A stretch of 64,000 bases of DNA, from NCBI RefSeq assembly GCF_036226885.1, contig NZ_CP109027.1, positions 5,208,001 through 5,272,000 on the forward strand, in the 5' to 3' direction. A program made the position numbers and the translations under genes. A model generated the notes under the pieces. That model did no database searches and was not told the DNA's origin. It worked only from the letters and a program-made list of their open reading frames with translations. This DNA is from Streptomyces sp. NBC_00663. Its GTDB lineage: Bacteria; Actinomycetota; Actinomycetes; Streptomycetales; Streptomycetaceae. This document shows, in pieces, positions 26,272 to 62,200 of this stretch. The stretch's first letter is position 1. Each line of letters begins with the position of its first letter.

Positions 26272-27353
26272 ACGACCGTATCCCTGATATCGCTGCCGTG
26301 GACCTTTTCTGCGGCGTTGGCGGGCTCACTCATGGCCTTGTCAGAAGTGGCATCAATGTTCGAGCGGGCGTTGACCTTGATCCGCATTGCAAGTACCCAT
26401 TTGAAGCAAACAACAGCGCACCATTCCTTGAACGCGACGTGAATGAGCTCAAGGCTGATGAACTCAAGGCTTACCTGAGCCCGGGCGATTACTCATTGCT
26501 GGCTGGGTGCGCGCCATGTCAACCCTTCTCCACTTACAGTCAAAGCGGGAGGAGTAAGAAGCGCGGTTTGGACTGGCAACTGGTCCTAAAGTTTGGCGCC
26601 CTAGTTGCCGAGTTGCAGCCAGATCTAGTCACCATGGAAAACGTGGCACAGCTCGCCCAGCACGAAGTTTTCGTAGATTTCTTGAAGTACCTGGATGGAT
26701 ATTCCGTCCATTATTCCATCGTCGAGTGCTCCAAAATTGGCGTTCCCCAGTCCCGTAAGCGGCTCGTGCTAATTGCCTCAAAATTGGGCGACGCTGGATT
26801 GAGCCTGGCAAGCCAGACCAACGCTCCCCTTCGAACCGTCCGGCAGGAGATCTCGAAACTTCCCGCCATCGCCGCCGGCGAGCAGCACAGTCGCGATCCT
26901 CTTCACACCGCAGCTTCGCTCAGCGAGATGAACATGCGCCGTATAAGGGCATCCAAGCCTGGTGGGACTTGGCGCGACTGGGATCCAGAGCTGATTGCCG
27001 CATGCCACCGAAAGACCACCGGGGCCACGTACCCGAGCGTCTACGGCCGAATGGAGTGGGATGCTCCCGCACCCACCATCACCACGCAATGCTTCGGTTT
27101 TGGTAATGGCCGCTTTGGGCACCCAACGCAGGACAGGGCCATCTCCCTCCGCGAGGCAGCTATGCTGCAAACTTTCCCTAGGAACTACAAGTTCCTCCCT
27201 AAGGGTGAGCAGGTTCGATTCAATCGCCTTGGTCGACTCATTGGCAATGCTGTTCCGGTTAGACTTGGTGAGGCTATCGGAAAAGTGATCATGGAGCATG
27301 TTCGATCAGTAGAAGGTGGTAAGAAGATGGAACCTTCGGATCGGCTTTTTTGA
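26268..27353 (+). CDS. DNA (cytosine-5-)-methyltransferase of the cassette
   Basis: The 361-aa enzyme shows motif I DLFCGVGGLTHG (12-23), the catalytic GCAPCQPFS with Cys84, MENVAQL (123-129), QSRKRLVLIA (motif VIII) and a C-terminal RLIGNAVPVRLGEAIG (motif X). Length and motif order are full. The target-recognition region is short, around 220-280. It starts at a GTG in GTGA overlap with the HEPN gene, so all three proteins are made from one message. It is distinct in sequence and composition from the element's other methyltransferase at 14,761-15,840. Confidence 0.92.
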   Translation: MNDRIPDIAAVDLFCGVGGLTHGLVRSGINVRAGVDLDPHCKYPFEANNSAPFLERDVNELKADELKAYLSPGDYSLLAGCAPCQPFSTYSQSGRSKKRGLDWQLVLKFGALVAELQPDLVTMENVAQLAQHEVFVDFLKYLDGYSVHYSIVECSKIGVPQSRKRLVLIASKLGDAGLSLASQTNAPLRTVRQEISKLPAIAAGEQHSRDPLHTAASLSEMNMRRIRASKPGGTWRDWDPELIAACHRKTTGATYPSVYGRMEWDAPAPTITTQCFGFGNGRFGHPTQDRAISLREAAMLQTFPRNYKFLPKGEQVRFNRLGRLIGNAVPVRLGEAIGKVIMEHVRSVEGGKKMEPSDRLF

Positions 27354-37800: not shown

Positions 37801-40800
37801 GGTGGTGGAGCGGTTCCGGGGGTGGGTGGCTGAGGCTCCGGGGGCGGTTGCGCTGTGGTCCGGGGGGCGTGGGTTGTCGTATGCGGAGGTGGATGCTCGG
37901 TCGGATGCGTTGGCGCGTGGGTTGGTGGCGCGTGGGGTGCGGGCGGAGTCCCGGGTGGGGCTGTGTCTGCCGCGTGGTGCGGAGATGGTCATTGCCATCT
38001 TGGGGGTGTGGAAGGCCGGTGGGGCGTACGTCCCGCTGGACCCGGAGTACCCGTCTGACCGGTTGGCGTTCATGGTCGCGGACAGCGGGGCCGAGGTGGT
38101 GCTGGTCTCGGAGGAGACGGCCGGTCGTGTGGCTGCGGGTGTGCTGCTGGATGAGGTGGTGGGTGAGTCCGGTGTGTTGCCGGAGGTTGGTGAAGGTCAA
38201 CTCGCCTATGTGATCTATACGTCGGGGTCGACGGGGCGTCCCAAGGGTGTGGCCGTCGCGCATGCCTCGGTGGCCAACCTGGCGTCTGTGATGGGTCCGG
38301 TGCTCGGGGTTGAGCCCGGGGTGGTGGCGTTGCAGTTCGCGTCGTTCAGTTTCGACGCGGCCGTGCTGGATGTTGCGGTCACGCTGGCTGGCGGCGGGAC
38401 GTTGGCGATCGCCTCGTCTGAGGAGCGGCTGGACCCCGCTGCCCTGGCCGGGATGCTTCAGGACGCCGGCGTGACGGTCGCGAGTGTGGTGCCCTCGCTT
38501 CTCGGGGCGTTGGAGCCGGGTGCTGTTGCCGGGGTCGGGAACTGGGTGCTGGGTGCTGAGCGCCTGGAGGCCGGGCTGGCGGCGAAGTGGCGTGAGGGCG
38601 CCCGAGTTTGGAACACGTACGGGCCGACTGAGGCCACCGTGATCTCGACTGCGGTGTTGCTGGAGGAGGGCATCACCGGCGAGGACGCCCCGCCCGCGAT
38701 CGGCCGCCCCCTGGGCAACGTCCGCACTTATGTACTCGACGCGAGCCTGCGGCCTGTTCAGGTGGGTGTGACGGGTGAGCTGTATATCGCCGGGGGTGGT
38801 CTGGCGCGTGGGTATGTGAATCGTCCGGATCTGACGGCGGAACGGTTCGTCGCGTGTCCGTTCGATGACAGCGGCGGCCGGATGTATCGCTCCGGGGACC
38901 TGGCTCGCTGGACTGTCGACGGCCAGTTGGAGTTCGTGGGGCGTGCGGATGCTCAGGTGAAGATCCGTGGGTTCCGGGTCGAGCTGGGTGAGGTCGAGGC
39001 CGTCCTCGCCGCCCACCCGCAGGTCGAGCGGGCGGTGGCCGTCGTACGGGATGGCCGTCTGGTCGGCTACGTCGTCGGCGATGTGGACGAGGACGCGGTA
39101 CGGGCGCATGCGGCGACCCGGTTGCCGGAGTACATGGTGCCGTCGGTGGTCGTCGTGCTCGACGCGTTCCCGCTGACCGTCAACGGCAAGGTCGACCGGG
39201 CTCTCCTGCCGGTGCCGGAGGTCGCGGCGAGTGAGGTGCGGGCGCCCGAGAACTCCGCGGAGAAGGCGTTCTGCGAGCTGTTCGCCGAGGTGCTGGGGCT
39301 GGAGAAGGTCGGGGTCGGGGACGGGTTCTTCGAGCTGGGCGGTGATTCGATCATGTCGATGCTGCTGGCTTCCCGTGCTCGGCGCGCCGGGTGGGTGGTG
39401 ACGCCTCGGCAGGTCTTCGAGGAGAAGACACCGGAGCGGCTGGCGCTGGTGGCGGCCGTGACCGGGGACAGGGTGGAGGAGGCCGAGGACGGCGGTGTCG
39501 GTGAGGTGCCGTGGACGCCGGTGATGCGGTCCCTGGGGGCGGAGGCGCTGCGGGCGGGGTTCGCGCAGTGGATGGCGGTCGGCGCGCCCGCCGGGCTGGG
39601 GACGGAGGTGCTGACTGCGGGGCTCGCGGCGGTGCTGGCCGTGCACCCCATGCTGCGGGGAGGTGTGCGGGGCGGGTCTGACGGCCGCCCGGTCCTGGTG
39701 GTGCCGGAGGCCGATGCGGTGGACCTTTCCGGCCGGGTGGTGCGGGTGGATGCTGTTGGTGTTCCTGACGGCGGTCTCGACGACGTGGCCGGGGAGGCTG
39801 CCCGGGCCGCGGTCGCGGCGCTGGACCCGGTGGCGGGTGTCATGGTGCGCGCGGTGTGGGTGGACGCCGGGCCGGACCGCGTCGGCCGGGTGGTCGTCGT
39901 AGCGCATCACCTGGTGGTCGACGGGGTGTCGTGGCGGGTGCTGATGCCGGATCTCCGGGCGGCCTGCGAGGCTGTTGTCGCGGGACGGAAGCCGGAGGGC
40001 GTCCTGGAGTCGGGTGGTGCCTCCTTCCGTTCCTGGGCACGGCAGTTGGAGCGGGCGGCGCTGCGTGCGGAGCGGGCGGCGGAGCTGGACGGCTGGGTGG
40101 AGCTGCTGGCCCGGGCCGACGGGCTGCGGACGGTCGGGCCCCGGGCCGACGGGCTGCGGGTGGTTGGGGCCGACGGATTGCCGGTCGTTGGGGCCGGTGG
40201 ACTGCGGGTGGTCGGATCGCGGGCCCTGGATCCGGACCGTGACACCGTCCGGACTCTCTCCCGCCGTGAGTGGACGCTGGCCGCCGATCGCAGTGCCGTC
40301 CTGGTGGGCCGTACTCCGGCGCTCTTCCACTGCGGTGTGCACGAGGTGCTGCTGGCGACGTTGGCGGGTGCCGTGGCGCGCTGGCGTCCGCGGGCCGGTG
40401 CCGGTGGGCTGCTGGTGGACGTGGAGGCGCACGGCCGGGAGCCGTTGGCGGAGGGCATGGACGTGTCCCGGACGGTGGGCTGGTTCACCGCGGTGCATCC
40501 GCTGCTGCTGGAGGTGTCGGATCTGGATCTGGACGATGCCGCGGTCGGCGGTGCCTCCGCGGGCGCGCTGGTCAAACGGGTGAAGGAGCAGGTGCAGGCG
40601 GTGCCGGGGGACGGCCTCGGACACGGTCTGCTGCGCTGGGCGAACCCGGACACGGCACGGGTGTTGGCGGATCTGCCCGTGCCGGAGATCGGTTTCAACT
40701 ATCTGGGCCGGTTCGCCGCCGCCGGCCCGGACGACGGGCCGGTCCGCGCCTGGCAGACGGCCGGGGGCGCGGCGATGGCCGGTACGGCGGATCCCGACAT

Positions 40801-41080
40801 GCCGGTGTCGCATGCGCTGGAAGCCGGCGCCCTGGTGGCGGACACCCCGGACGGGCCGCTGCTCACCCTCACACTGAGCTGGCCCGGCAGGCTGCTCGAC
40901 GAGAGCCGGGCGGAGTGTCTGGGCCGGGCCTGGCTGGAGCTGCTGGAAGGCGTCGCCGCCCACACCGCCGACCCGTCGGCCGGCGGCCACACCCCCTCCG
41001 ACTTCGCGCTGCTGGATCTCGACCAGGACGAGATCGAGGCCCTCGAATTCGAGTTCGCCGCCGACGACGACCACCACTGA
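31823..41080 (+). CDS. NRPS1: C-A-T-E-C-A-T-E, two D-residue modules
   Basis: The 3,085-aa synthetase has eight domains. C1 (about 10-430) is of the EntF type ([16 protein letters not shown]), with NHLLLDG where HHxxxDG is usual. A1 is about 455-930, T1 about 950-1020 (GGDSI). E1 is about 1050-1510, with CHLVVDA and EGHGRE. C2 (about 1525-1960, HHLLLDG) is of the type that accepts a D-residue. A2 is about 1975-2450, T2 about 2465-2545. E2 is about 2560-3060, with canonical HHLVVDG. Both A domains read pocket code DALSVGTVIK and have the A10 Lys (TVNGKVDR). So two identical monomers should be loaded, epimerised and passed as a D-D dipeptide to NRPS2. S at position 278 and DAL recall Tyr-type codes (DALTTGEVVK), but the substrate is not settled. 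GAGGGGCGG precedes the ATG. Confidence 0.93.
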
Positions 41081-41224
41081 TCGCTGCGCCCGTCCTTCCC
41101 CATCCCCATCCCCTTCCCCTTCCTCTCCCTATCTCCCTCCCTTCTCCCGTCTTCCTTCGCTCTTCCCCAGCGCCCGCTCCGGGCCGTCCCTTTTGTGACT
41201 TCTGTCTGTGAGGAGATCTACGCG
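41081..41224 (+). promoter_or_regulatory. C/T-rich spacer between the NRPS genes
   Basis: From about 41,089 to 41,169 the plus strand is nearly all C and T, with only about three G. The transcript here would be C-rich, G-poor and unstructured. The NRPS2 ribosome site AGGAG is at 41,211-41,215. No separate promoter is obvious, so the two NRPS genes are probably one operon. Confidence 0.5.
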
Positions 41225-44200
41225 ATGACCCGGACTCGGAACGCCATCGAGGACATCTGGCCGCTGTCGCCCCTTCAGGAGGGACTGCTGTTCCACGCGG
41301 CCTTCGGGGACGGGGCGTCCGACGTGTACGCGGGGCAGCGGGCCCTCGCCCTCGACGGGCCGCTGGACGTCGACCGGCTCCGCCGCTCCTGGGAGAGTCT
41401 GATCACCCGGCACGGCGCGCTGCGGGCCGGCTTCCGCCGGCGCAGGTCGGGCCAGGCGGTACAGGTGGTCGCCCGCCACGCGGAACTCCCCTGGCGGGAA
41501 GCCGACTTGAGCGGCCTGGCGCAGGAGGAGGCGGAGGCCGAGGCGGCCCGGCTCTCCGAGGCCGAACTGTCGGCCGGCTTCGATCTCGCGCGGGGTCCGC
41601 TGCTGCGGCTGCTGCTGATCCGCCTCGGCGGGCGACGCCACCGTCTGGTCATGACGACCCATCACATCGTGCTGGACGGCTGGTCGTTGCCGATCCTGGT
41701 CGACGAACTGTCGACGCTGTACCGGGCCGGAGGCGAGGCCGGGGCGCTGCCCCCGGTCCGCTCCTACAAGGATTACCTGGCCTGGCTGGGCCGCCAGGAC
41801 CGGGAGGCGGCACGGAACGCGTGGCGCGCGGAACTGGCGGGGGCGGACGAACCGACCCTCGTCGCCCCGGCCGACCCCGCCCGGACACCGCTGCGGCCGG
41901 AGGCGCTGACCGTCGAATGCAGCGCGGAACTGACCCGAGCGCTGGAAACACTGGCCCGTGACCACGGGGTCACCATGGCCACGGTGGTGCAGGGCGCGTG
42001 GGCCCTGGTCCTCGCCCGGCTGTCCGGACGCCAGGACGTGGTGTTCGGCACCACGGTCGCCGGCCGCCCCACGGACCTGCCGGGCGCCGACTCGCTCATC
42101 GGCCTGTTCATCAACACCCTGCCGGTACGGGTCGAGCTGGCCGGCGGCCAGTCCGTCGCCGACCTGCTGCGTATCCTGCAAGCGCGCCAGGTCGCCCTCC
42201 TGGGCCACCAGCACCTCGGCCTCACCGAGATCCGGCAACTCACCGGACCCGGCGCCGAGTTCGACACACTCGTCGTGTACGAGAACTACCCGCGCCCGGC
42301 GGACGCGGCGCCGGACGGCCCCGATGCCCTCACCATCCGGCTCGACGGCCGGACGAGGGACGCCAGCCACTACCCTCTCGGTCTGATCGTCGGGCCGGGC
42401 GAGCGACTGGAGCTGCAACTCGACCACCGCACCGACCTGTTCGACCGGGCCCTCGCCGAACAGGTGCTCGGCGCGCTCCAGCAGGTACTCGAAGGCTTCG
42501 TGGCCGACCCGCGGACACCGCTGGCCCGCCTCGGCCTGCTGACCGGCGGCGAACTGACCCGCGTCACTCGGGACTGGCAGGACATCCAGCCCGAGGCGCC
42601 CACCGGGACACTGCCCGAACTCCTCGCCGGGCAGGTGCGACGGACACCGGACGCGATGGCCCTGGACTCGGACGACCGGACGTACGGCTACGCCGAATTG
42701 CAGGACGAGGCGGGCCGCCTCGCCCGGCACCTGATCACCCTGGGAGTGGGGCCCGAGCGCCGGGTCGCCGTGGTCGCCGAACGGTCGGCGGACACCGTCG
42801 TCGCACTCCTCGCCGTCTCCATGGCCGGCGGCGCCTTTGTCCCCCTCGACCCCGGGCACCCCGCCGACCGGCTCGCCCTCGTCCTGGAGGACGCCGACCC
42901 GGTCGCGGTCCTCTGCACCGAGGCCGGCCGCGCGCTGCTGCCGCAGGCCGCCCGGGACCGGGCGATCGCCCTCGACGACCCGCAGGTCGCGGCAGCGGTG
43001 GCACGCCAGGCACCCGGCCCGGTGACCGACCCCGAACGCACAGCTCCGCTGCGCCCCGCCAACGCCGCCTACGTCATCCACACCTCGGGTTCGACGGGGC
43101 GGCCGAAGGGTGTGGTGGTGTCGCATGCGGGGTTGGTGAATTTGGCGGGTGCGCAGGTTGAGCGGTTTGCGGTGGGTGTGGGTTCGCGGGTGTTGCAGTT
43201 TGCGTCGTTGAGTTTTGATGCGGCGGTGTCGGAGTTGTGTATGGCGTTTGGTGCGGGTGGGGTGTTGGTGGTTGCGGGGGCTGGGGCGTTGCCGCCGCGG
43301 GTGTCGTTGGGTGAGGCGTTGGTGCGGTCGGGGGCTTCGCATGTGACGGTGCCGCCTGGGGTGTTGGCGGTGGAGGAGGGGGTGTTGCCGGCGGGGTTGG
43401 AGACGTTGGTGGTGGCGGGGGAGGTGTGTGCGCCGGGGTTGGTGGATCGGTGGTCGGTGGGTCGGCGGATGGTGAATGCGTATGGGCCGACTGAGGTGAC
43501 GGTGTGTGCGGCGATGAGTTTGCCGTTGGAGCCGGGTGCGGGTGGTGGTTCGGGTGTGGTGCCGGTGGGGCGTCCGTTGCGGAATGCGGGGGCGTTTGTG
43601 CTGGATGCGTTTTTGCAGCCGGTGCCGGTGGGTGTGCGGGGTGAGTTGTATGTGTCGGGGGTTGGGCTGGCGCGTGGGTATGCGGGGCGTGCTGGTCTGA
43701 CATCGGAGCGGTTTGTGGCGTGTCCGTTCGGTGAGGGTGGCGGGCGGATGTATCGCACGGGTGATGTGGTGCGGTGGCGTGCGGATGGGCAGTTGGAGTT
43801 TTTGGGGCGTGTGGATGAGCAGGTGAAGATCCGCGGGTTCCGGGTGGAGCTGGGTGAGGTGGAGGCTGTTCTTGCCGCGCATCCGGGGGTTGAGCAGGCG
43901 GTGGCGTTGGTCCGGGACGGCCGCCTCATCAGCTACGTCGTCGGCGATACGGAGGGTGCGGACGGAGCGGAGCTGCGGACGTATGCCGGTACCCGGTTGC
44001 CCGAGTACATGGTGCCGTCGGTGGTCGTCGTCCTGGACGCCTTCCCGCTGACGGTGAACGGCAAGGTGGACCGGGCCGCCTTGCCGGTGCCGGACCTGGG
44101 TGCGGGAGCCTCTCGTGCGCCGTCGACCCCGACCGAGGAGGCGCTTGCGGCCCTGTTCGCCGAGGTGCTGGATCTGGAGCGGGTGGGGGCGGAGGAGAGC

Positions 44201-47200
44201 TTCTTCGAGCTGGGCGGTGATTCGCTGCTGGTGATGCGGCTGATCGCCCGGATCAGGTCGGCGTTGGGCGTGTCGGTCGGGGTTCGTGAAGTGTTCGCGG
44301 AGCCGACCGTGGCGGGTGTCGCGCGGCTGGTCGAGGGGGCCGGGGCGTCGACCGATGTGGCGCTGGCGAGGCGGGAGCGGCCTGAGCGGATGCCGTTGTC
44401 GTTCGCCCAGCAGCGGATGTGGTTCCTCAACCGCATGGACGGGGCGGGTACTGAGGGCGCCGCTGCCTACAACATGCCTTTCGCCCTTCGGCTGTCGGGG
44501 CGACTGGACGTGGCCGCGCTGGATGCGGCGTTGGGTGACGTCGCTGAACGTCACGAGAGTCTGCGCACGGTCTTCCCGGACGTGGAGGGCGTGCCGTATC
44601 AGGAGATCCGTGAGGGTGTCGAGGGGCGTCCTGTGCTCCAGGTGGTCGAGGCCGGCGAACGGTGGCGTGACGCCCTGCAGGAGGAGGCCGGGCGCGGATT
44701 CGATCTGGCAGCTGAACTGCCTTGGCGGACCAGCCTGTTGAAGGTCTCGGAGTCGGAGTGGGTGCTGCTCCTGGTCGCTCATCACATCGTCACGGATGCC
44801 TGGTCGATGGGTGTGCTGGCGGGCGACCTTCAGGTTGCCTACGGAGCTCGGCTCTCCGGGGAGACTCCGGGCTGGGAGCTGCTTCCTGTCCAGTACTCGG
44901 ATTACGCGCTGTGGCAGCGCGAGGTGCTGGGTGAGCTGGAGGACCCGGACAGTGCGGGGGCGGCCCAGGTCGCGTTCTGGCGGCGGGCGTTGGAGGGGGT
45001 GCGGCAGGAGACTGCGCTGCCGTTCGACCGTCCGCGAGGGGCGGTGCCGACGTTCCGTAGTGGGTCGGTTCCGGTCGGGGTGGATGCGGGGACGCATGCC
45101 CAGTTGGTGGAGCTGGCCGCGCAGGGCGGGGCGACCATGTTCATGGTCGTGCACGCGGCGCTGGCACTGCTGCTGGCCCGGATGGGGGCGGGCGAGGACG
45201 TCTGCGTCGGCACCCCGGTCGCCGGGCGGCCGGATGCGCAGTTGGAGGGGCTGGCCGGGTTCTTCGTCAACACGCTGGTCCTGCGGTCCGATGCTTCGGG
45301 GAACCCCACGTTCGGTGAGCTGCTGGCACGGGTGCGCGAGGCTGATCTGTCGGCGTACGCGCATCAGGACGTGCCGTTCGAGCGGCTGGTGGATGAGCTG
45401 AACCCGGCGCGTTCCGCGGCCCGGAATCCGCTGTTCCAGGTGATGCTGGCGCTTCAGAACGTGCCCGAGGCCCGGTGGGAGTTGCAGGGGCTGTGGGTGG
45501 AGCAGGTTCCGCCGGTGGAGGATCCGGCAGCCCGTTTCGACTTGGCGGTGGACCTCAGCGAGCAGTGGAACGAGAGCGGTGCCCCGGCCGGGCTGGGCGG
45601 GGGGATTCTCTACGCGGCCGATCTGTTCGATGAGCGGACGGTTCGCGGGCTGGCTGGGCGGCTGGTGCGGGTGCTGGAGCAGGTCGCGGCCGATCCGGAG
45701 GTGCGGCTGAGCGATCTGGATCTGCTCGGTGAGTTTGAGCGGGCCCTGGTGGTGGGGGAGTGGAATGCCACGGGGCAGGTGCTTGAGCCGGGTTCGGTGG
45801 TGGAGCGGTTCCGCGCCAGCGTGGTCAGGGAGCCGGGGGCGGTTGCGCTGTGGTCCGGGGGGCGTGCGTTGTCGTATGCCGAGGTGGACGCGCAGTCGGA
45901 TGCGCTTGCGCGTGGGTTGGTGGCGCGTGGGGTGGAGGCGGAGTCCCGGGTGGGGCTGTGTCTGCCGCGTGGTGCGGAGATGGTCATCGCCGTTCTGGCG
46001 GTGTGGAAGGCCGGTGGGGCGTATGTGCCCCTTGACCCGGAGTACCCGTCTGACCGGTTGGCGTTCATGGTCGCGGACAGTGGGGCCGGGGTGGTGCTGG
46101 TCTCGGAGGAGACGGCCGGTCGTGTGGCTGCGGGTGTGCTGCTGGATGAGGTGGTGAGTGACTCCGGTCTCCTGCCGGATGTCACCGGCGTCCAACTCGC
46201 CTATGTGATCTATACGTCGGGGTCGACCGGGCGGCCGAAGGGTGTGGCCGTCGCGCATGCTTCCGTGGCCAACCTTGCCTCGGTGATGCGGCCCGTCCTG
46301 GGCGTCGAACCTGGCGTTACGGCGTTGCAGTTCGCGTCGTTCAGTTTCGACGCGGCGGTGCTGGATGTTGCGGTCACGCTGGCTGGCGGGGGCACGTTGG
46401 CGATCGCCTCGTCCGAGGAGCGGCTGGACCCCGCTGCCCTGGCCGGAATGCTTCAGGACGCCGGCGTGACGGTCGCGAGTGTGGTGCCTTCGCTTCTCGG
46501 GGCGTTGGAGCCGGGTGCTGTTGCCGGGGTCGGGAACTGGGTGCTGGGTGCTGAGCGCCTGGAGGCCGGGCTGGCGGCGAAGTGGCGTGAGGGCGCGCGG
46601 CTGTGGAACACGTACGGGCCGACCGAGGCGACCGTGATCACCACCGCAGTGCTCCTGGAGGAGGGCATCACCGGTGAGGACGCCCCGCCGGCGATCGGTC
46701 GCCCCCTGGGCAACGTCCGCACCTACGTGCTCGACACGTTCCTCCGCCCGGTCCCTGTCGGGGTCACAGGTGAGCTGTACATCGCCGGAGACGGCTTGGC
46801 GCGCGGTTACATCAACCGCCCGGACCTGACCGCGGAACGCTTCATCGCCTGCCCGTTCGATGAGGACGGCGGCCGGATGTACCGCACCGGTGACCTGGCC
46901 CGCTGGACCGCCGACGCTCAGCTGGCCTTCGTCGGCCGTGCCGACGAGCAGGTCAAGATCCGTGGCTTCCGGGTCGAACTCGGTGAGGTCGAGGCCGTCC
47001 TCGCCGCCCACCCGCAGGTCGACCAGGCGGTGGCCGTCGTACGGGATGGCCGTCTGGTCGGCTACGTCGTCGGCGATGTGGACGAGGACGCGGTACGGGC
47101 TCATGCGGCGACCCGGCTGCCGGACTACATGGTCCCGGCTGCCGTGCTGGTGCTGGACGTGCTGCCCCTGACCGTGAACGGCAAGGTGGACCGGGGTGTG

Positions 47201-50200
47201 CTGCCGGTGCCGGAGCTGAGTGCCGGCGCTTCCCGTGGGCCGGTGACGGCGACGGAGGAGGCGCTGTGCGGGCTGTTCGCCGAGTTGCTCGGCGTGGAGA
47301 GCGTCGGGGCGGAGGAGAGCTTCTTCGAGCTCGGCGGTGATTCGTTGCTGGTGATGCGGCTGATCGCCCGGATCAGGTCGGTGCTGGAGGTGTCGGTCGG
47401 GGTCCGTGAGGTGTTCGCGGAGCCGACCGTGGCCGGTATCGCGAGGCTGGTCGAGAGTGCCGGGGCGTCGGCGGGCGTGGTGGTGTTGGCGCGTCGGGAG
47501 CGGCCCGAGCGGGTGCCGTTGTCGTTCGCTCAGCAGCGCATGTGGTTCCTCAACCACTTGGAAGAGGTCGGTGCGGAGAGTGCGGGCGCCGTCTACAACC
47601 TGCCGCTGGTGCTGCGTCTGAACGGGCGGCTGGACGCTGCCGCGCTGGCTGCGGCGTTGGGCGACATCGCCGACCGGCACGAGAGTCTGCGCACGGTCTT
47701 CCCGGACATCGAGGGCGTGCCGTATCAGCGGGTGCTGGTGGGGGCGGACAGTCGTCCGGAGCTGGTTGTGGTCGAGGCGGGTGAGCGGTGGCGCGAGCTT
47801 GTGGAGGCTGAGATCGGGCGTGGCTTCGACGTCGGGGCCGAACTGCCCTGGCGTACCACGCTGTTGAAGGTCTCCGAGGCGGAGTGGGTCCTGCTGCTGG
47901 TGGCCCACCACATCGCCACCGACGCATGGTCGATGGGCGTGATAGCAGGCGATCTCCGGGACGCCTATCGGACCCGACTCGCCGGGGAGGACCCGGGCTG
48001 GGGCCTGCTCCCTGTCCAGTACGCGGATTACGCGCTGTGGCAGCGCGAGGTACTGGGTGAGCTGGATGACCCGGACAGTGCGGGAGCGGATCAGGTCGCC
48101 TTCTGGCGGCGGGCGCTGGAGGGCGCGCCGCAGGAGACGGCCCTTCCGTTCGACCGTCCGCGGTCGGCGGTGCCGACGTTCCGGAGTGGGTCGGTTCCGG
48201 TCGGGGTGGATGCGGGGACGCATGCCCGGTTGGTGGAGCTGGCCGCGCAGGGCGGGGCGACCATGTTCATGGTCGTGCACGCGGCGTTGGCTGTGCTGCT
48301 GGCCCGGATGGGGGCCGGGGAGGACATGTGCGTCGGCACGCCGGTCGCCGGGCGGCCGGATGCGCAGTTGGAGGAGCTGGCCGGCTTCTTCGTCAACACG
48401 CTGGTCCTGCGCTCGGATGTGGCAGGGGACCCGTCGTTCGTCGAGGTGTTGCGTCGCGTGCGTGAGGCTGATGTGTCGGCGTACGCGCATCAGGACGTGC
48501 CGTTCGAGCGGCTGGTGGATGAGCTGAACCCGGCCCGCTCCGCGGCCCGGAATCCGCTGTTCCAGGTGATGCTGGCGCTCCAGAACGTGCCCGAGGCGCG
48601 GTGGGAGCTTGAGGGACTGACTGTCGAGCAGATCCCGCCGCAGATGGCTCCCGCCCGTTTCGACCTCTCGGTGGGCCTCAGCGAGCAGTGGTCCGGCCAG
48701 GGTGTCCCGGCCGGTCTGGATGGCGGGATTCTCTACGCGGCCGATCTCTTCGATGAGGGGACGGTTCGTGGGCTGGCCGGGCGGCTGGTGCGGGTGCTGG
48801 AGCAGGTCGCGGCCGATCCGGAGGTGCGGCTGAGCGCTCTGGATCTGCTGGAGGAGTCCGAGCTGGCGGCGGTCGTCGAGGAGTGGAACGCCACGGCTGA
48901 GGCGCTTGAGTCCGGTTCGGTGGTGGAGCGGTTCCGCGCCAGTGTGGCCAGGGAGCCCGGGGCGGTTGCGCTGTGGTCCGGGGGGCGTGCGCTGTCGTAT
49001 GCCGAGGTGGATGCCCGGTCGGATGCGTTGGCGCGTGGGCTGGTGGCGCGTGGAGTGCGGGCGGAGTCCCGGGTGGGGCTGTGCCTGCCGCGTGGTGCCG
49101 AGATGGTCGTGGCGATGTTGGGGGTGTGGAAGGCCGGTGGGGCGTACGTCCCGCTGGACCCCGAGTACCCCTCCGACCGGCTGGCCTACATGGTCGCCGA
49201 CAGCGGGGCCGAGCTGGTGCTGGTCTCGGAGGAGACGGCCGGTCGCGTGTCCGCGGGTGTTCTGCTGGATGAGTTGGCGACCGATTCCGGCGTGCTGCCG
49301 GAGGTCGGATCCGAGCAACTGGCGTACGTCATCTATACGTCGGGGTCGACCGGGCGTCCCAAGGGTGTGGCCGTCGCGCATGCCTCGGTGGCCAATCTGG
49401 CGTCCGTGATGCGTCCCGTTCTCGGCGTTGAACCTGGCGTCACGGCGTTGCAGTTCGCGTCCTTCAGCTTCGACGCGGCGGTGCTGGATGTTGCGGTCAC
49501 GCTGGCCGGCGGGGGCACGCTGGCGATCGCTTCGTCCGAGGAGCGCCAGGATCCGGCTGCCTTGGCGGCCATGGTGGAGGCGGCCGGCGTGACGGTGGCG
49601 AGCGTGGTGCCGTCGCTGCTGAACGTGCTGGAGCCGGAGGCGGTGTCCGGGGTCGGGAACTGGGTCCTGGGCGCCGAGCGCCTGGAAGCCGGCCTGGCGG
49701 CCAAGTGGCTTGCAGGCGCCCGGGTTTGGAACACCTACGGCCCCACCGAGGCCACTGTGATCACTACCGCCGTGCTGCTGGAAGACGGCATCACGGGTGA
49801 GGACGCTCCGCCCGCGATCGGTCGTCCCCTGGGTAACGCCCGTACGTATGTGCTCGACGCGTATCTGCGTCCTGTCCCGGTCGGTGTGACGGGTGAGCTG
49901 TACATCGCTGGGGACGGCTTGGCGCGCGGCTACGTCAACCGCACCGACCTGACGGCGGAGCGGTTTGTGGCGTGCCCGTTCGGTGAGGGCGGGGGGCGGA
50001 TGTATCGCTCTGGTGACCTGGCTCGGTGGACGGCGGACGGGCTGTTGGAGTTCGTGGGGCGTGCGGATGCGCAGGTGAAGATCCGTGGGTTCCGGGTCGA
50101 GCTGGGCGAGGTCGAGGCCGTCCTCGCCGCTCACCCGCAGGTCGAGCGGGCGGTGGCCGTCGTACGGGATGGCCGTCTGATCGGGTACGTCGTCGGTGGC

Positions 50201-53200
50201 GCGGACGATGAGGACGTACGGGCGTATGCGGCGACCCGGTTGCCGGAGTACATGGTGCCGTCGGTGGTCGTCGTGCTCGACGCGTTCCCGCTGACCGTGA
50301 ACGGCAAGGTCAACCGTGAGGCCTTGCCGGTGCCGGATCTGGGGGCGGGTGCTTCGCGTGAGCCGGTGACTCCGGCCGAGGTGGCGCTTGCGGTTCTGTT
50401 CGCCGAGGTGCTGGGGCTGGAGCGGGTGGGGGCGGAGGAGAGTTTCTTCGAGCTGGGTGGTGATTCGCTGCTGGTGATGCGGCTGATCGCCCGGATCAGG
50501 TCGGTGCTGGAGGTGTCGGTCGGGGTTCGTGAGGTGTTCGCGGAGCCGACGGTGGCGGGTGTCGCGCGGCTGGTCGAGGGTGCTGGGGCGTCGGCGGGTG
50601 TGGTGGTGTTGGGGCGTGGGGAGCGGCCTGAGCGGGTGCCGTTGTCGTTCGCCCAGCAGCGGATGTGGTTCCTCAACCGGATGGACGGGGAGGGCGCTGA
50701 GGGCGCCGCTGCCTACAACCTCCCGTTCGCCCTGCGGCTGACCGGCAGCCTGGATGTCCAGGTGTTGCAGGCGGCGCTGTGGGATGTCGCCGATCGTCAC
50801 GAGAGTCTGCGGACGGTCTTCCCGGACGTGGAGGGCGTGCCGTATCAGGAGATCCGTGAGGGTGCCGAGGGGCGTCCTGTGCTCCAGGTCGTCGAGGCCG
50901 GCGAGCGGTGGCGTGAGGTCATTCAGGGCGAGGCCGAGCGCGGGTTCGATCTCGCGGTCGAGTTGCCGTGGCGTACCTCGCTGCTCAGGGTCTCGGAGGC
51001 GGAGTGGGTGCTGCTGCTGGTGGCCCACCACATCGCCACCGACGCCTGGTCGATGGGCGTGCTCGCCGGTGACCTGCAAACGGCGTACCGGTCGCGGTTG
51101 AACGGTCAGGCACCGGAGCGGGAGCTGCTTCCTGTCCAGTACGCGGATTACGCGCTGTGGCAGCGCGAGGCGCTGGGCGAGCTGGACGACCCGGACAGTG
51201 CCGCGTCGGGGCAGGTCGCTTTCTGGCGGCAAGAGTTGGACGGGGCACCGCAGGAGACGGTGCTGCCCTTCGATCGTCCGCGGTCGGCGGTGCCGTCGTT
51301 CCGGAGTGGGTCGGTTCCGATGGAGGTGGACGCGGGGACGCATGCCCGGTTGGTGGAGCTGGCCGCGCAGGGCGGGGCGACCATGTTCATGGTCGTGCAC
51401 GCGGCGTTGGCTGTGCTGCTGGCCCGGATGGGGGCCGGGGAGGACGTCTGCATCGGTACGCCGGTTGCCGGACGGCCGGATGCGCAGTTGGAGGAGCTGG
51501 CCGGCTTCTTCGTCAACACGCTCGTTCTGCGGTCCGATGCTTCGGGGAACCCCACGTTCGGTGAGCTGCTGGCGCGGGTGCGCGAGTCCGACCTCGCGGC
51601 GTACGCGAACCAGGACGTGCCCTTCGAGCGGCTGGTGGATGAGCTGAATCCGGCCCGTTCCGCCGCCCGTAACCCACTGTTCCAGGTCCTGTTGGCGCTT
51701 CAGAACGTGCCCGAGGCCCTCTGGGATCTCGAAGGGCTGGCGGTCGAGCAGATCGCGCCTCTGGCGGATCCCCCGGCTCGCTTCGATCTCTCCCTGACGC
51801 TGAGCGAGCGCCGGTCGGAGGGCGGGGCCGCCGGTGGTCTGCGTGGCGGGATCCTCTACGCGGCCGATCTGTTCGACGAGGGGACGGTCCGTGGGCTGGC
51901 CGGCCGGCTGGTGCGGGTGCTGGAGCAGGTTGCCGCCGATCCGCAGCTGCGGCTGAGCGCCGTAGAGGTGCTGGAACCGGGGGAGAGGTCCACGGTCGTC
52001 GAGCAGTGGAACGGGCCCGTGAGCGAGGTCGAAGCCGCGACGGTGCTGGAGCTGTTCCAGGGGTGGGTGGCGCGGACGCCTGAGGCGGACGCCCTGTGCT
52101 CCGAGGACAAGACGCTGTCGTACGCCGAACTGAACGCGCGTTCCGACGCGTTGGCGCGCGGACTGGTGGCGCGTGGTGTGGGCCGGGAGTCCCGGGTGGG
52201 GCTGTGCATGCCGCGGGGGCTGGATGCGATCGTCGCGATCCTGGCGGTGTGGAAGGCCGGTGGGGCGTACGTCCCGCTGGACCCGCAGTATCCGTCGGAC
52301 CGGCTGGCCTACATGGTCGCCGACAGCGACGCCGAACTCGTCCTGGTCGCACCCGAGACCGCCGACCGGCTGGCCGACGGCGTGGAGACGGTCCTGCTCG
52401 ACGAGCTGGACGGCGACTCGTCCGCACTGCCCGACATCGTCCCTGATCAGCTCGCCTACATCATCTACACCTCGGGTTCGACGGGGCGGCCGAAGGGTGT
52501 GGTGGTGTCGCATGCGGGGTTGGTGAATTTGGCGGGTGCGCAGGTTGAGCGGTTTGCGGTGGGTGTGGGTTCGCGGGTGTTGCAGTTTGCGTCGTTGAGT
52601 TTTGATGCGGCGGTGTCGGAGTTGTGTATGGCGTTTGGTGCGGGTGGGGTGTTGGTGGTTGCGGGGGCTGGGGCGTTGCCGCCGCGGGTGTCGTTGGGTG
52701 AGGCGTTGGTGCGGTCGGGGGCGTCGCATGTGACGGTGCCGCCTGGGGTGTTGGCGGTGGAGGAGGGGGTGTTGCCGGCGGGGTTGGAGACGTTGGTGGT
52801 GGCGGGGGAGGTGTGTGCGCCGGGGTTGGTGGATCGGTGGTCGGTGGGTCGGCGGATGGTGAATGCGTATGGGCCGACTGAGGTGACGGTGTGTGCGGCG
52901 ATGAGTTTGCCGTTGGAGCCGGGTGCGGGTGGTGGTTCGGGTGTGGTGCCGGTGGGGCGTCCGTTGCGGAATGCGGGGGCGTTTGTGCTGGATGGGTTTT
53001 TGCAGCCGGTGCCGGTGGGTGTGCGGGGTGAGTTGTATGTGTCGGGGGTTGGGCTGGCGCGTGGGTATGCGGGGCGTGCTGGTCTGACGTCGGGGCGGTT
53101 TGTGGCGTGTCCGTTCGGTGAGGGTGGCGGGCGGATGTATCGCACGGGTGATGTGGTGCGGTGGCGTGCGGATGGGCAGTTGGAGTTTTTGGGGCGTGTG

Positions 53201-56200
53201 GATGAGCAGGTGAAGATCCGCGGGTTCCGGGTGGAGCTGGGTGAGGTGGAGGCTGTTCTTGCCGCGCATCCGGGGGTTGAGCAGGCGGTGGCGTTGGTGC
53301 GGGACGGCCGCCTCATCAGCTACGTCGTGACGGGTTCGAGCGCCGACGTGGACGCGACCGCTCTGCGCGCCTTCGCTGCCACGCGTGTGCCGGATTACCT
53401 GGTGCCGTCGGTGGTCGTCGTGCTCGACGCGTTCCCGTTGACCGTGAACGGCAAGGTCAACCGTGAGGCCTTGCCGGTGCCGGACTTGGGTGCGGGAGCC
53501 TCTCGTGCGCCGTCGACCCCGACCGAGGAGGCGCTTGCGGCCCTGTTCGCCGAGGTGCTGGATCTGGAGCGGGTGGGGGCGGAGGAGAGCTTCTTCGAGC
53601 TGGGTGGTGATTCGCTGCTGGTGATGCGGCTGATCGCCCGGATCAGGTCGGTGCTGGAGGTGTCGGTCGGGGTTCGTGAGGTGTTCGCGGAGCCGACGGT
53701 GGCGGGTGTCGCGCGGCTGGTCGAGGGGGCCGGGGCGTCGACCGATGTGGCGCTGGCGAGGCGGGAGCGGCCTGAGCGGGTGCCGTTGTCGTTCGCCCAG
53801 CAGCGGATGTGGTTCCTCAACCGCATGGACGAGACCAGCGCTTCCGCCTACAACATGCCCTTCGCGTTGCGGCTGACCGGCAGCCTCGATGTCGAGTCGC
53901 TACAGGCCGCCTTGGCTGACGTTGCTGATCGTCACGAGAGTCTGCGGACGGTCTTCCCGGACGTGGAGGGCGTGCCGTATCAGGAGATCCGTGAGGGTGC
54001 CGAGGGGCGTTCTGTGCTCCAGGTCGTCGAGGCCGGCGAGCGGTGGCGTGACGCCATGCGGGAGGAGGCCGGGCGGGGCTTCGACGTACGAGGCGAACTG
54101 CCCTGGCGGACCACGCTGTTGAAGGTCTCGGAGTCGGAGTGGGTGCTGCTCCTGGTCGCTCATCACATCGCTACGGATGCCTGGTCGATGGGTGTGCTGG
54201 CGGGGGACCTTCAGGTTGCCTACGGTGCTCGGCTCTCCGGGGAGGCTCCGGGATGGACGCCGTTGCCGGTGCAGTACGCGGATTACGCGCTGTGGCAGCG
54301 GGAGACACTCGGTGAGCTGGACGACCCGTCGAGCCCAGGAGCGGGTCAGGTCGCGTTCTGGCGGCGGGCGTTGGAGGGGGTGCCGCAGGAGACTGCGCTG
54401 CCGTTCGACCGTCCGCGTCCGGCGGTTCCGTCCTTCCGTAGTGGGTCGGTTCCGATGGAGGTGGATGCGGGGACACATGCCCGGTTGGTGGAGCTGGCCG
54501 CGCAGGGCGGGGCGACGATGTTCATGGTCGTCCATGCCGCGCTGGCCGTGCTGCTGGCCCGGATGGGGGCAGGCGAGGACCTGTGCCTCGGCACCCCGGT
54601 CGCCGGGCGCTCGGACGCCCAACTGGAGGAGCTGGCGGGCCTCTTCGTCAACACGCTGGTCCTGCGGTCCGATGCTTCGGGGAACCCCACGTTCGGTGAG
54701 CTGCTGGCACGGATCCGGGAATCTGATCTGTCGGCGTACGCGCATCAGGACGTGCCGTTCGAGCGGCTGGTGGATGAGCTGAACCCGGCCCGTTCCGCGG
54801 CCCGTAATCCGCTGTTCCAGGTGATGCTGGCGCTCCAGAACGTGCCGGAGGCCAGGTGGGAGTTGCAGGGGCTGGCGGTCGATGAGGTCCAGCAGACGGA
54901 CGACCTCGTGGCCCGCTTCGATCTCTCTCTTTCGCTGAGCGAGCGCAGGTCGGAGGGCGGCGCCGCTCGTGGTCTGCGTGGCGGGATTCTGTACGCGGCC
55001 GACCTCTTCGATGAGGGGACGGTTCGTGGGCTGGCCGGGCGGCTGGTGCGGGTGCTGGAGCAGGTTGCCGGTGATCCGGAACTGCGACTGAGTGACCTCG
55101 ACCTGCTCGACGAGCCCGAGCGGGTGTCGGTCGTCGAGGAGTGGAACGCCACGGCTGAGCCGCTTGAGTCCGGTTCGGTGGTGGAGCGGTTCCGCGCCAA
55201 TGTGGCCAGGGAGCCGGGGGCGGTTGCGCTGTGGTCGTCCGGGGGGCGTGCGGTGTCGTATGCCGAACTGGATGCCCGGTCGGATGCGCTTGCGCGTGGG
55301 CTGGTGGCGCGTGGTGTGGGCCGGGAGTCCCGGGTGGGGCTGTGTCTGCCTCGTGGTGCGGAGATGGTCGTCGCCATCTTGGGGGTGTGGAAGGCCGGTG
55401 GGGCGTACGTCCCACTGGATCCCGAGTACCCGTCTGACCGGTTGGCGTTCATGGTCGCCGACAGCGACGCCGAACTGGTGCTGGTCTCGGAGGAGACGGC
55501 CGACCATGTAGCCGCAGGTGTGCTGCTGGATGAGTTGCTGAGTGACTCCGGTCTCCTGCCGGAGATCGGTAGCGACCAACTGGCCTATGTCATCTATACG
55601 TCGGGGTCGACGGGGCGGCCGAAGGGGGTGGCCGTCGCGCATGCTTCCGTGGCCAACCTGGCGTCTGTGATGCGTCCCGTCCTGGGTGTTGAACCTGGGG
55701 TCACGGCGTTGCAGTTCGCCTCGTTCAGCTTCGACGCGGCGGTGCTGGATGTTGCGGTCACGCTGGCCGGCGGGGGCACGTTGGCGATCGCTTCGTCCGA
55801 TGAGCGGCTGGACGGTGCGGCGCTTGCGCGCATGATCGAGGCGGCCGGGGTGAGCACGGCGAGTGTGGTGCCTTCGCTCCTCGGGGCGCTGGAGCCGGAC
55901 GCGGTGTCCGGGATCAGGAACTGGGTCCTGGGTGCTGAGCGCCTTGAGGCCGGGCTGGCGGCGAAGTGGCGTGAAGGCGCGCGGGTTTGGAACACGTACG
56001 GGCCGACCGAGGCCACCGTCATCACCACCGCAGTCCTCCTGGAGGAGGGCATCACCGGCGAGGACGCCCCGCCGGCGATCGGCCGCCCCCTGGGCAATGT
56101 CCGCACCTACGTACTGGACGCGTTCCTGCGCCCGGTCCCTGTCGGGGTCACAGGTGAGCTGTACATCGCCGGAGACAGCTTGGCGCGCGGCTACATCAAC

Positions 56201-59200
56201 CGCCCGGACCTGACGGCGGAACGCTTCATCGCCTGCCCGTTCGACGAGGACGGCGGCCGGATGTACCGCACCGGCGACCTGGCCCGCTGGACGGTGGACG
56301 GTCAGCTGGCGTTCGTGGGCCGTGCCGACGAGCAGGTCAAGATCCGTGGCTTCCGGGTCGAACTCGGTGAGGTCGAGGCCGTCCTCGCAGCCCACCCGCA
56401 GCTCGATCGAGCGGTGGCCGTGGCCCGGGACGGCCGTCTGATCGGGTACGTCGTCGGAGACGCGGACGCCGAGAACGTACGGGCGTATGCGGCGACCCGG
56501 TTGCCGGAGTACATGGTGCCGTCGGTGGTCGTCGTACTCGACGCGTTCCCGCTGACCGCCAACGGCAAGATCAACCGTGCCGCCCTGCCCGCCCCCGACC
56601 TCGGCGCGAGCGGTGGTCGTGCGCCGGCCACTGGGACCGAGGAGGCGCTTGCGGCCCTGTTCGCCGAGGTGCTGGACCTGGAAGCCGAGGCGATAGGCGC
56701 GGAGGAGAGCTTCTTCGAGCTGGGCGGCGATTCGCTGAAGGTGATGCGGCTGATCGCCCGCATCCGCTCGGTGCTGGAGGTGTCGGTCGGCGTCCGCGAG
56801 GTCTTCGCCGATCCGACCGTGGCCGGTATCGCAAGGCTGGTCGAAAGCACCACAGCGTCGACGGGTGTGCTGCTGGCGCGTCGGGAGCGCCCCGACCGGG
56901 TACCGCTGTCCTTCGCCCAGCAGCGCATGTGGTTCCTCAACCGCATGGACGAGACCAGCGCGTCCGCCTACAACATGCCCTTCGCTCTCCGCCTGACCGG
57001 CAGCCTCGACACCGAGGCCTTGCAGTCGGCCCTGGGGGACATCGCCGACCGGCACGAAACCCTGCGCACGGTCTTCCCGGACATCGAAGGCGTGCCCTAT
57101 CAGGACATCCGCGAGGGTGCCGAAGGACGCCCCCGCCTCCAGGTGATCGAGGCTGGCGAGCGCTGGCGTGACGCCATGCGGGCCGAGGCGGGACGTGGGT
57201 TCGATCTGGCGGCCGAACTGCCGTGGCGGACCATGCTGCTGAAGGCCTCGGAGTCGGAGTGGGTCCTGCTCCTGGTGGCTCACCACATCGCCTCCGACGC
57301 CTGGTCGATGGGCGTGCTGGCCCGCGACCTACAGAGCGCCTACCGCGCCCGCCTCGCAGGGGAGGCCCCGGGGTGGGAGCCCTTCCCCGTCCAGTACGCG
57401 GATTACGCGTTGTGGCAGCGCGAGGTACTGGGTGAGCTGGACGACCCGGACAGCGCCGGAGCGGGGCAGGTCGCCTACTGGCGACGGGAGTTGGAGGGCG
57501 CTCCCCAGGAGACGGTGCTGCCCTTCGACCGCCCGCGTCCGGCGGTGCCGACGTTCCGTAGTGGGTCGGTACCGGTGGACGTCGATGCGGGGGCGCATGC
57601 CCGGCTGACGGAGTTGGCGGCGCAGGGCGGGGCGACGATGTTCATGGTCGTCCATGCCGCGCTGGCCGTGCTGCTGGCCCGGATGGGGGCGGGGGAGGAC
57701 ATCAGCGTCGGCACCCCGGTTGCCGGGCGTTCGGACGCACAGCTGGAGGATCTGGCCGGGTTCTTCGTCAACACGCTGGTCCTGCGCTCGGACTTGGCGG
57801 GGGACCCGTCCTTCGCCGAGGTGCTGCGCAGGGTGCGCGAGACCGACCTGTCGGCGTACGCGAACCAGGACGTGCCCTTCGAGCGGCTCGTCGACGAGCT
57901 CAACCCGGCCCGTTCCGCCGCCCGCAATCCGCTGTTCCAGGTGATGCTGGCGCTCCAGAACGTGCCCGAGGCCCTCTGGGACCTCGAAGGGCTGGCGGTC
58001 GAGCAGATCCCGCCGGCGGAAGACCCCCCGGCCCGCTTCGACCTCTCCCTGACGCTGAGCGAACTCCGCTCGGAGGGCGGCGCAGTCGACGGTCTGCGGG
58101 GCGCGATTCTCTACGCGGCTGATCTCTTCGACGAGGAGACCGTCCGCCGGCTGGCCGAGCGGCTGGTGCGGGTGTTGGAGCAGGTCGCGGCCGATCCGCG
58201 GCTGCGGCTGAGCGACGTAGAGGTGCTGGAGGAGGCCGAGCGGGCGGCGGTCGTTGAAGGATGGAACGCCACGCATCAGCAGGTCGACACCGCGACCGTG
58301 CTGGAGCGGTTCCGTATCAGTGCGGCCGGGGCGCCGGAGGCGGTGGCGCTGTGGTCCGAGGGCCGGGCGCTGTCGTATGCCGAGGTGGACGCACGGTCGG
58401 ACGCGCTCGCGCGTGGGCTGGTGGCGCGTGGCGTGGGCCGGGAGTCCCGGGTGGGGCTGTGCCTGCCGCGCGGTGCCGAGATGGTCGTGGCGATGTTGGC
58501 GGTGTGGAAGTCCGGCGGGGCGTATGTGCCCCTTGACCCGGAGTACCCGTCCGACCGGCTGGTGTTCATGGTCGCCGACAGCGACGCCGAACTCGTCCTG
58601 ATCGCGCCCGAGACCGCCGACCGGCTGTCCGCGGAGGTCGACACCGCCCTGCTCGACGAACTGGACGGCGACGCGAGCGAGCTGCCGGATGTCACCGGCG
58701 TCCAACTCGCCTATGTCATCTATACGTCGGGGTCGACGGGGCGGCCTAAGGGGGTGGCCGTCGCGCATGCCTCTGTGGCCAACCTGGCGTCTGTGATGCG
58801 TCCCGTCCTGGGCGTTGAACCTGGGGTCACGGCGTTGCAGTTCGCCTCGTTCAGTTTCGACGCGGCCGTGCTGGATGTGGCGGTCACCCTCGCCTCGGGC
58901 GGGACGTTGGCGATCGCCTCGTCCGAGGAGCGGCTGGACCCCGCTGCCCTGGCCGGAATGCTTCAGGACGCCGGCGTGACGGTCGCGAGTGTGGTGCCCT
59001 CGCTCCTCGGGGCGCTGGAGCCGGACGCCGTAGCCGCGATCAGGAACTGGGTCCTGGGCGCCGAGCGCCTTGAGGCCGGGCTGGCGGCCAAGTGGCGCGA
59101 GGGAGCGCGGGTTTGGAACACGTACGGGCCGACCGAGGCCACCGTGATCACCACCGCGGTGCTCCTGGAGGAGGGCATCACCGGCGAGGACGCCCCACCG

Positions 59201-62200
59201 GCGATCGGTCGCCCCCTGGGCAATGTCCGCACCTACGTACTGGACGCGTTCCTGCGCCCGGTCCCTGTCGGGGTCACAGGTGAGCTGTACATCGCCGGAG
59301 ACGGCTTGGCGCGCGGCTACATCAACCGCCCAGACCTGACCGCGGAACGCTTCATCGCCTGCCCGTTCGACGAGGACGGCAGCCGGATGTACCGCACCGG
59401 CGACCTGGCCCGCTGGACCGCGGACGGTCAGCTGGCCTTCGTCGGCCGCGCCGACGAGCAGGTCAAGATCCGCGGCTTCCGAGTCGAACTCGGTGAGGTC
59501 GAAGCCGTCCTCGCAGCCCACCCGCAGCTCGATCGAGCGGTGGCCGTGGCCCGGGACGGCCGTCTGATCGGGTACGTCGTCGGAGACGCGGACGCCGAGA
59601 ACGTACGGGCGCATGCGGCGACCCGGCTGCCGGAGTACATGGTGCCGTCGGTGGTCGTCGTACTCGACGCGTTCCCGCTGACCACCAACGGCAAGATCAA
59701 CCGTGCCGCCCTCCCCGCCCCCGACCTCGGCGCGAGCGGTGGTCGTGCGCCGGCGACCCCGACCGAGAGGGCGATCGCGGCCCTGTTCGCCGAGGTGCTG
59801 GACCTCGAAGCCGAGGCGATAGGCGCGGAGGAGAGCTTCTTCGAGCTGGGCGGCGATTCTCTGAAGGTGATGCGGCTGATCGCCCGCATCCGCTCGGTGC
59901 TGGAGGTGTCGGTGGGCGTCCGTGAGGTCTTCGCCGATCCGACCGTGGCCGGTATCGCAAGGCTGGTCGAGAGCACCACAGCGTCGACGGGTGTGGTGCT
60001 GGCGCGTCGGGAACGCCCCGACCGGGTGCCGCTGTCCTTCGCCCAGCAGCGCATGTGGTTCCTCAACCGTATGGACGAGACCAGCGCGTCCGCCTACAAC
60101 ATGCCCTTCGCTCTCCGCCTGACCGGAAGCCTCGACACCGAGGCCTTGCAGTCGGCCCTGGGGGACATCGCCGACCGGCACGAAACCCTGCGCACGGTCT
60201 TCCCGGACATCGAAGGCGTGCCCTATCAGGACATCCGCGAAGGTGCCGAGGGACGCCCCCGCCTCCAGGTGATCGAGACCGGCGAGCGCTGGCGTGACGC
60301 CATGCGGGACGAGGCCGAGCGCGGCTTCGACGTTCGAGGCGAACTGCCGTGGCGTACCACGCTGTTGAAGGTCTCGGGGTCGGAGTGGGTGCTGCTCCTG
60401 GTGGCTCATCACATCGCCACGGACGCCTGGTCGATGGGCGTGCTGGCCCGCGACCTACAGAGCGCCTATCGCGCTCGTCTCGGCGGGGAGGCTCCGGGAT
60501 GGGAGCCGCTCCCCGTGCAGTACGCGGATTACGCACTGTGGCAGCGGGAGGTGCTGGGCGACTTGGACGGCGACAGCGACGGCGACCGCGACAGCGGCAA
60601 CGGGCCCGGCACGGGTACCGGGCAGGTGGATTACTGGCGGCGGGTGTTGGAGGGCGCGCCGCAGGAGACGGTGCTGCCGTTCGACCGTCCGCGTCCGGCG
60701 GCGCCGTCGATCCGCAGCGGGTCGGTTCCGGTCGGGGTGGACGCGGGGACGCATGCCCGGCTGACGGAGCTGGCGGCGCAGGGCGGGGCGACGATGTTCA
60801 TGGTCGTTCATGCCGCGCTGGTGGTGCTGCTGGCCCGGATGGGAGCCGGGGAGGATGTCTGCGTCGGTACGCCGGTCGCGGGCCGGTCCGACGTACAGCT
60901 GGAGGAGTTGGCGGGGTTCTTCGTCAACACGCTCGTGCTGCGCTCCGACGCCTCCGGTGACCCCACCTTCGGTGACCTGCTGGCGCGTGTCCGGGAGACC
61001 GACCTGTCGGCGTACGCGAACCAGGACGTGCCCTTCGAGCGGCTCGTCGACGAGTTGGGTGTGGCGCGTTCCGCCGCGCGCAATCCGCTGTTCCAGGTGA
61101 TGCTGGCGCTCCAGAACGTGCCCAAGGCGCAGTGGGACCTGGAAGGGCTGGCGGTCGAGGAGATACCGCCCGCGTCCGACCCGGCCGCACGGTTCGACCT
61201 GTCGGTGGCCCTGAACGAGTTCCACACCGCCGAGGGCGAGCCGGAGGGTATGCGGGGCGGCATCCTGTTCGCGGCCGACCTGTTCGACGAGGACACCGTC
61301 CGCCGGCTGGCCGGGCGGCTGGCGCGGGTGCTGGAGCAGGTCGCGGCCGATCCGCAGCTGCGGCTGAGCGCCGTCGAGGTGCTGGACGAGGCCGAGCGGA
61401 CCACGGTCGTGACGGAGTGGAACGCCACGGCCCGCGACGCGGACGACGTCACCACGGTCGTGGAACGGTTCCGCGAGTGGGCCGCACGGACACCGACGGC
61501 GGTGGCGCTCCGCTTCCTCGGCCGCTCGCTGACGTACGCCGAGGTGGATGCCCGGTCGGACGCGTTGGCGCGTGGGTTGGTGGCGCGTGGTGTGGGCCGG
61601 GAGTCCCGGGTGGGGCTGTGTCTGCCGCGCGGGGCCGAGATGGTCATCGCCATCTTGGGGGTGTGGAAGGCCGGTGGGGCGTACGTCCCGCTGGATCCCG
61701 AGTACCCCTCCGACCGGCTGGCCTACATGGTCGCCGACAGCGGGGCCGAGCTGGTGCTGGTCTCGGAGGAGACGGCCGACCGTGTAGCCGCAGGTGTTCT
61801 GCTGGGTGAGGTGGCGAGGGACGCCGGTGTTCTGCCGGACGGGGTCGCATCCGGCCAACTGGCCTACGTCATCTATACGTCGGGGTCGACCGGGCGCCCC
61901 AAGGGCGTGGCCGTCGCGCACGCCCCGGTGGCGAACCTGGCCACCGCCATGCGCCCGGTGCTGGGTGTCGAACCCGGGGTGACGGCCTTGCAGTTCGCGT
62001 CGTTCAGCTTCGACGCCTCCGTCCTGGACGTCGCGGTGACGCTGGCCGCGGGCGGCACGTTGGCCATCGCCTCGTCGGAGGAGCGGCTGGACCCCGCTGC
62101 CCTGGCCGCCCTGGTGGAGACCTGCGGTGTCGAGGTCGCGAGCGTCGTCCCGTCGCTGCTCGGGGTGCTGGAGCCGGAGGCGGTCCACGGGATCGGCAAC

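Follow-up and report, generated by a model that had tools for sequence, protein, structure and literature searches.

Near-identical, nucleotide-skewed adenylation cores in two modules of a Streptomyces peptide synthetase: a probable intragenic gene-conversion unit

Exchange of the substrate-pocket core of adenylation (A) domains is an established hotspot in the evolution of non-ribosomal peptide synthetases (NRPS) (PMC8097286). For Streptomyces and others, breakpoints were reported in two regions, one between motifs A2 and A4 and the other starting at A5 (PMC7486941). Intragenomic cases of A-core exchange have been described, and concerted evolution by gene conversion was raised for assembly lines (PMC9205934). 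Natural exchange of this subdomain is treated in all three reports, with Crusemann et al. 2013 cited therein. A second related system are the genetic repeats of intense nucleotide skews (GRINS), whose description from 2021 is cited in PMC10394414 and PMC9899208. In the parts of these two papers dealing with them, GRINS are repeats of about 1 kb within one assembly-line gene, more than 90% identical and with GC and TA skews above 25%. They are tied to gene conversion, are most frequent in actinobacteria and are placed in polyketide synthases (PKS) and PKS-NRPS hybrids (PMC10394414, PMC9899208).

We analysed a stretch of 64,000 nucleotides from Streptomyces sp. NBC_00663, in the following called the window. 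The chromosome is a single contig of 9.86 Mb, and the best protein relatives were mostly from Streptomyces. Two NRPS genes are located on the + strand. NRPS1 (31823..41080, 3085 aa) contains two A domains and four condensation-type stretches. NRPS2 (41195..64000, 9557 aa) runs on past the window to 69868 on the window scale and consists of eight C-A-T modules, followed first by a degenerate C-A remnant and then by a thioesterase. The remnant, located past the window (66200-69200 on its scale; L009, 3200-6200), lacks canonical motifs A3 and A5 and looks like a ninth module in decay. In the scanned parts of both genes, the domains detected were of the condensation, AMP-binding, carrier and thioesterase types only, as in a pure NRPS. 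The ten A domains of NRPS1 and NRPS2 show canonical motifs. Their specificity codes were read from an alignment with a segment of GrsA PheA, with PheA as control returning the expected DAWTIAAIC; the last K of both codes was assumed, not extracted. DASTVAAVCK (Y) was found in modules 1 and 4 of NRPS2 and DALSVGTVIK (X) in the other eight A domains, including both of NRPS1. The order in NRPS2 is Y X X Y X X X X. A literature search for the two codes gave no match. Modules 1 and 4 may activate one common, putatively Tyr/Phe-like substrate.

Two further observations were made in the window. On the - strand an open frame of 4046 aa (41129-53269) lies antisense to modules 1-4 of NRPS2. It was rejected as a gene, because the coding strand has almost no A in third position, so that TTA, CTA and TCA codons are few, and this scarcity accounts for the frame. 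On the + strand, at 24362-27353, genes for a GmrSD-type nuclease domain, a HEPN-domain protein and a C5 cytosine DNA methylase are adjacent. The nuclease gene matches the PADLOC model NsnA (3e-54), and the trio is a candidate restriction or defence cassette.

The cores of the two Y-type A domains of NRPS2 are nearly identical. The copy in module 1 (43080..43941, + strand) extends from A3 to just past A8 and has a GC skew of +0.50 and a TA skew of +0.52; the copy in module 4 (52467..53328, + strand) has skews of +0.51 and +0.53. Both align without gap over 862 bp on diagonal +9387. The preliminary description had estimated about 99.4% identity and about five differences by eye; exactly 5 mismatches (99.42%) were counted, at 43336, 43608, 43702, 43707 and 43912 of the module 1 copy. 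Among 1860 polymorphic sites, the longest stretch of modules 1 and 4 with at most five mismatches covered 457 sites, compared to a maximum of 56 in 20,000 permutations. Upstream of A3 the modules are only about 46-62% identical, and positions 43079 and 43073 already differ. At the other end, identity is lost at 43942, past A8 (43805-43849), with an indel and about 65% identity for about 100 bp. Duplication of the whole module was rejected, as the C domain and the N half of the A domain differ between modules 1 and 4. The distal part of the block (43580..43941, A6-A8, + strand) is 75-88% identical to the resident A domains of NRPS1 modules 1 and 2 and NRPS2 module 3 towards its end. No third, better donor was found in the genome; the next best matches covered the distal 345 bp only, at 81% identity or less. 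Furthermore, a second tract of 94-99% identity between modules 1 and 4 was detected in the T domain and linker (44060..44400, + strand), reaching into the beginning of the following C domain. In part of this tract module 4 is 98-100% identical to module 3. Thus, modules 1 and 4 have more in common than the 862-bp block and are mosaics.

Near-identical repeats are prone to collapse or co-polishing, and one copy might have been overwritten by the other during assembly. We regard such an artefact as highly improbable, since five differences persist between copies with unique flanks on a one-contig chromosome, and the same layout is seen in Streptomyces sp. GKU 895, a different strain that was assembled independently.

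Which module received the core was examined with the A1-A2 halves. In module 1 this half (42596..43069, + strand) belongs to the lineage of its own core and has a normal codon composition (C at about 55% of third positions). In module 4 (51983..52456, + strand) it is of the resident DALSVGTVIK type. In the tree of N halves module 4 of NRPS2 grouped with the residents (100/100) and module 1 with DAST-type domains (99/94); the preliminary description had assigned the part upstream of the block to the DALSVGTVIK lineage in module 4, but not in module 1. In the tree of cores both modules grouped together with their GKU 895 counterparts (100/98). The trees thus show the core of module 4 to be incongruent with its surroundings in the module. 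L152, a DASTVAAVC module without skew from a different Streptomyces, follows module 1 across C domain, N half and core; its resemblance to module 4 is good from A3 onward only. Hence, half-domain trees and collinearity identify module 1 as native holder and module 4 as recipient of the core. The proposed copying of a pocket core into a resident domain agrees with these trees. At the level of sequence, the code of the recipient has changed: module 4 carries DASTVAAVCK, its N-half relatives DALSVGTVIK. As in the cases detailed in the reports on natural A-core exchange, the swap is limited to the pocket part, spares the C-A linker and the domain interfaces and breaks on the left between A2 and A4. 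Those accounts, in contrast, treat single swaps between specificities, whereas the present pair is strongly skewed and appears repeatedly re-equalised.

The evidence for this re-equalisation comes from GKU 895, whose orthologous eight-module gene was found by one scan of genome contigs. The genes are 86-95% identical in nucleotides over aligned pieces, the comparison being one with a single strain and a draft assembly of imperfect sequence quality with frameshifts. A search of 393 genomes of the genus with the C-A region of module 1 for more orthologous strains yielded only a relative with 69% identity (G289). In GKU 895, too, modules 1 and 4 carry DAST-type cores, and the other modules have DALSVGTVIK-type codes. 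Its own two cores differ at 1 position over about 787 bp, up to 43866 on the scale of the present strain, and diverge beyond. Between the strains, orthologous cores differ at 7-8%. Over 43080-43861, 53 sites were lineage-specific, i.e. grouped by strain, none was module-specific and 5 were singletons. At the left edge the pattern flips within 5 bp, the last ortholog-type site being 43079 and the first paralog-type site 43084. This junction lies in motif A3 of both modules (43070..43084 and 52457..52471, + strand). Upstream of A3, orthologues are 76-93% identical, paralogues 47-67%. The paralog-type pattern on the right and the ortholog-type pattern on the left of this edge indicate concerted evolution, for which gene conversion within each of the lineages is the simplest explanation. 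As in concerted evolution of bacterial repeats, paralogues within a strain are closer than orthologues between strains; the present case differs in being a sub-domain block with one edge fixed at a homology boundary. The identical specificity code might also be explained by protein-level selection on both cores without any copying. This was refuted by synonymous identity and can be given practically no weight: third positions are nearly all identical within the strain, but differ at 33 of 261 in the orthologous core.

A single copying event, dated by the 99.4% identity, had been assumed before. It does not fit GKU 895, where the pair is equally homogenised yet 7-8% different. From the 53 to 0 strain-wise sites and this second pair, the swap most likely took place before the strains split, and the pair was homogenised since in each lineage. 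Four private changes were counted in the present strain and one in GKU 895, compared to 53 changes since the split. With a clock assumed, this suggests a last homogenisation at about 8% (present strain) and about 2% (GKU 895) of the time since the split. Likewise, the sharp edges described at A3 and after A8 proved to be of different kind. Only the left edge proved to be a sharp one; on the right the block ends with a conversion tract inside general homology, at about 43866 in GKU 895 and at 43941 in the present strain, and was rejected as a fixed junction. In the GKU 895 contig (L142), the module 1 and module 4 cores contain two identical single-base insertions relative to the present strain, a net +2 frameshift. 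Shared sequencing errors at G runs are likelier than a lesion spread by conversion, because the contig has other frameshifts.

A related eleven-module synthetase (L144-L146; G101 C1:8332000-8390500) has the codes X X X Y V X Y X X X X. Its pair of DAST-type cores is nearly identical over about 1.35 kb around A3 (about -600 to +750), and the skew falls at both edges. The left edge lies in the C-A linker and not at A3. These observations bear on the question whether each strain copied the module 1 core into module 4 on its own after the split, starting at A3. Each strain's own pair is near-identical, and A3 is a conserved anchor in the region between A2 and A4 where breakpoints cluster according to PMC7486941. 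Nevertheless, this would require that one and the same recipient module was hit twice, at junctions agreeing within 5 bp. Moreover, in G101 the Y cores likewise lie three modules apart, with four DALSVGTVIK modules behind them, a layout suggestive of an old arrangement. We therefore consider independent swaps unlikely and prefer one old swap with later homogenisation.

The composition of the block is conspicuous. In 43080-43580, G makes up 77% of third positions, T 22%, C 1% and A 0%; immediately before the block in module 1, C accounts for 55-56% and G for 34-36%. The G/T-rich third positions unlike the flank, noticed previously, were hence confirmed. Leucine is mostly encoded by TTG (22 of 28 codons), and Gly and Val are enriched compared to unskewed relatives. 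The flanking N halves have skews of -0.11/-0.09 and +0.10/+0.07. From the codons a different source lineage had been deduced, a conclusion we could not uphold. Relatives of the pocket lineage with 68-75% protein identity have a normal composition (L040, L042, L043, L048, L050, L027), as has L152, and others are strongly skewed (G101, L046, L047, one copy of G096). Since skewed and unskewed relatives occur in one pocket lineage, composition is no lineage marker, and foreign origin by codon usage was rejected. Of the 33 third-position changes that separate the strains within the block, 20 are G<->T, and C occupies 8-13 of 261 third positions; in the flank the changes are mostly C<->G (23 of 42). 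The dominance of G<->T changes and the low C content indicate that a two-letter alphabet of third positions is maintained. One recent copy event in the present strain, with G/T-rich codons marking a different donor, would agree with the 99.4% identity and the abrupt change of composition at the edge. It is very improbable nonetheless: GKU 895 has the same, equally homogenised pair at 7-8% distance, skew does not follow the protein lineage, and the changes between strains hold the G/T alphabet with no drift to the C-rich third positions of the host.

For the comparison with GRINS, an identity of more than 80% to another region of the synthetase over at least 500 bp was applied (150-nt windows, ungapped comparison). 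Such stretches are 43043-43972 and 52403-53362, with mean best identities of 0.98 and 0.975, and the skews in the block are 0.51 and 0.53. With 98% identity, a GC skew of +0.50 and a TA skew of +0.52, the block lies above the limits published for GRINS. The association of GRINS with gene conversion has its counterpart in the 53 to 0 site patterns between the two strains. Like GRINS, the block is a near-identical pair within one gene, with nearly all third positions of the coding strand G or T and with the skew starting and ending close to where the identity does. It differs in its location in a pure NRPS, on an amino-acid pocket core, and by orthologue evidence of parallel homogenisation. The other repeats in NRPS1 and in modules 1-4 of NRPS2 also pass a skew level of 0.15. 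The repeats of modules 5-6 (55223-60562) do not, with high identity and skews of just 0.12 and 0.15; homogenisation therefore does not require skew. The two A domains of NRPS1 form another skewed pair of high identity (33173-34702 and 37733-39262, skews 0.26-0.37) that satisfies the same limits, a candidate second GRINS pair of the cluster. Among 70 other NRPS loci, a sample of modest size picked by protein similarity and made up of relatives of one pocket type, 9 had near-duplicate cores (best pair at least 85% identical), and in 6 of these the best pair was skewed; among the other 61 loci, only 1 had a skewed best pair (Fisher p = 4e-6).

Taken together, the two blocks are probably copies of one intragenic gene-conversion unit with the hallmarks of GRINS. 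At an early date, before the split from GKU 895, the resident DALSVGTVIK-type A domain of module 4 would have lost its own pocket core to that of module 1, with the junction placed in motif A3. After the split from GKU 895, gene conversion would have re-equalised both cores repeatedly, the left tract edge being fixed where homology stops and the right edge remaining variable. The skew may have arisen by in-place recoding rather than by import. A literature search, the founding paper of 2021 being outside it, gave no report of GRINS in a pure NRPS; the abstract of that PNAS paper reportedly mentions other gene families, too.

The finding joins two mostly separate fields, natural A-core swaps in NRPS and skewed conversion repeats in PKS, and in the strain pair homogenisation can be counted directly, with one edge pinned down to within 5 bp. 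With regard to engineering, both edges had been proposed as a junction pair proven by nature. The A3 edge recurs in GKU 895 and is a candidate for a reusable junction, still carried by two strains; the right edge, 43866 there and 43941 here, is unsuitable as a design rule. Furthermore, odd codon composition in such genes should not be taken as horizontal origin. In general, we tentatively suggest that GRINS-type repeats might be a general and active feature of NRPS genes, too. Confined to the pocket and with skew edges at sub-domain junctions, they could hold pairs of modules to one substrate or carry a substrate into further modules, and conversion itself could make or keep the skew.
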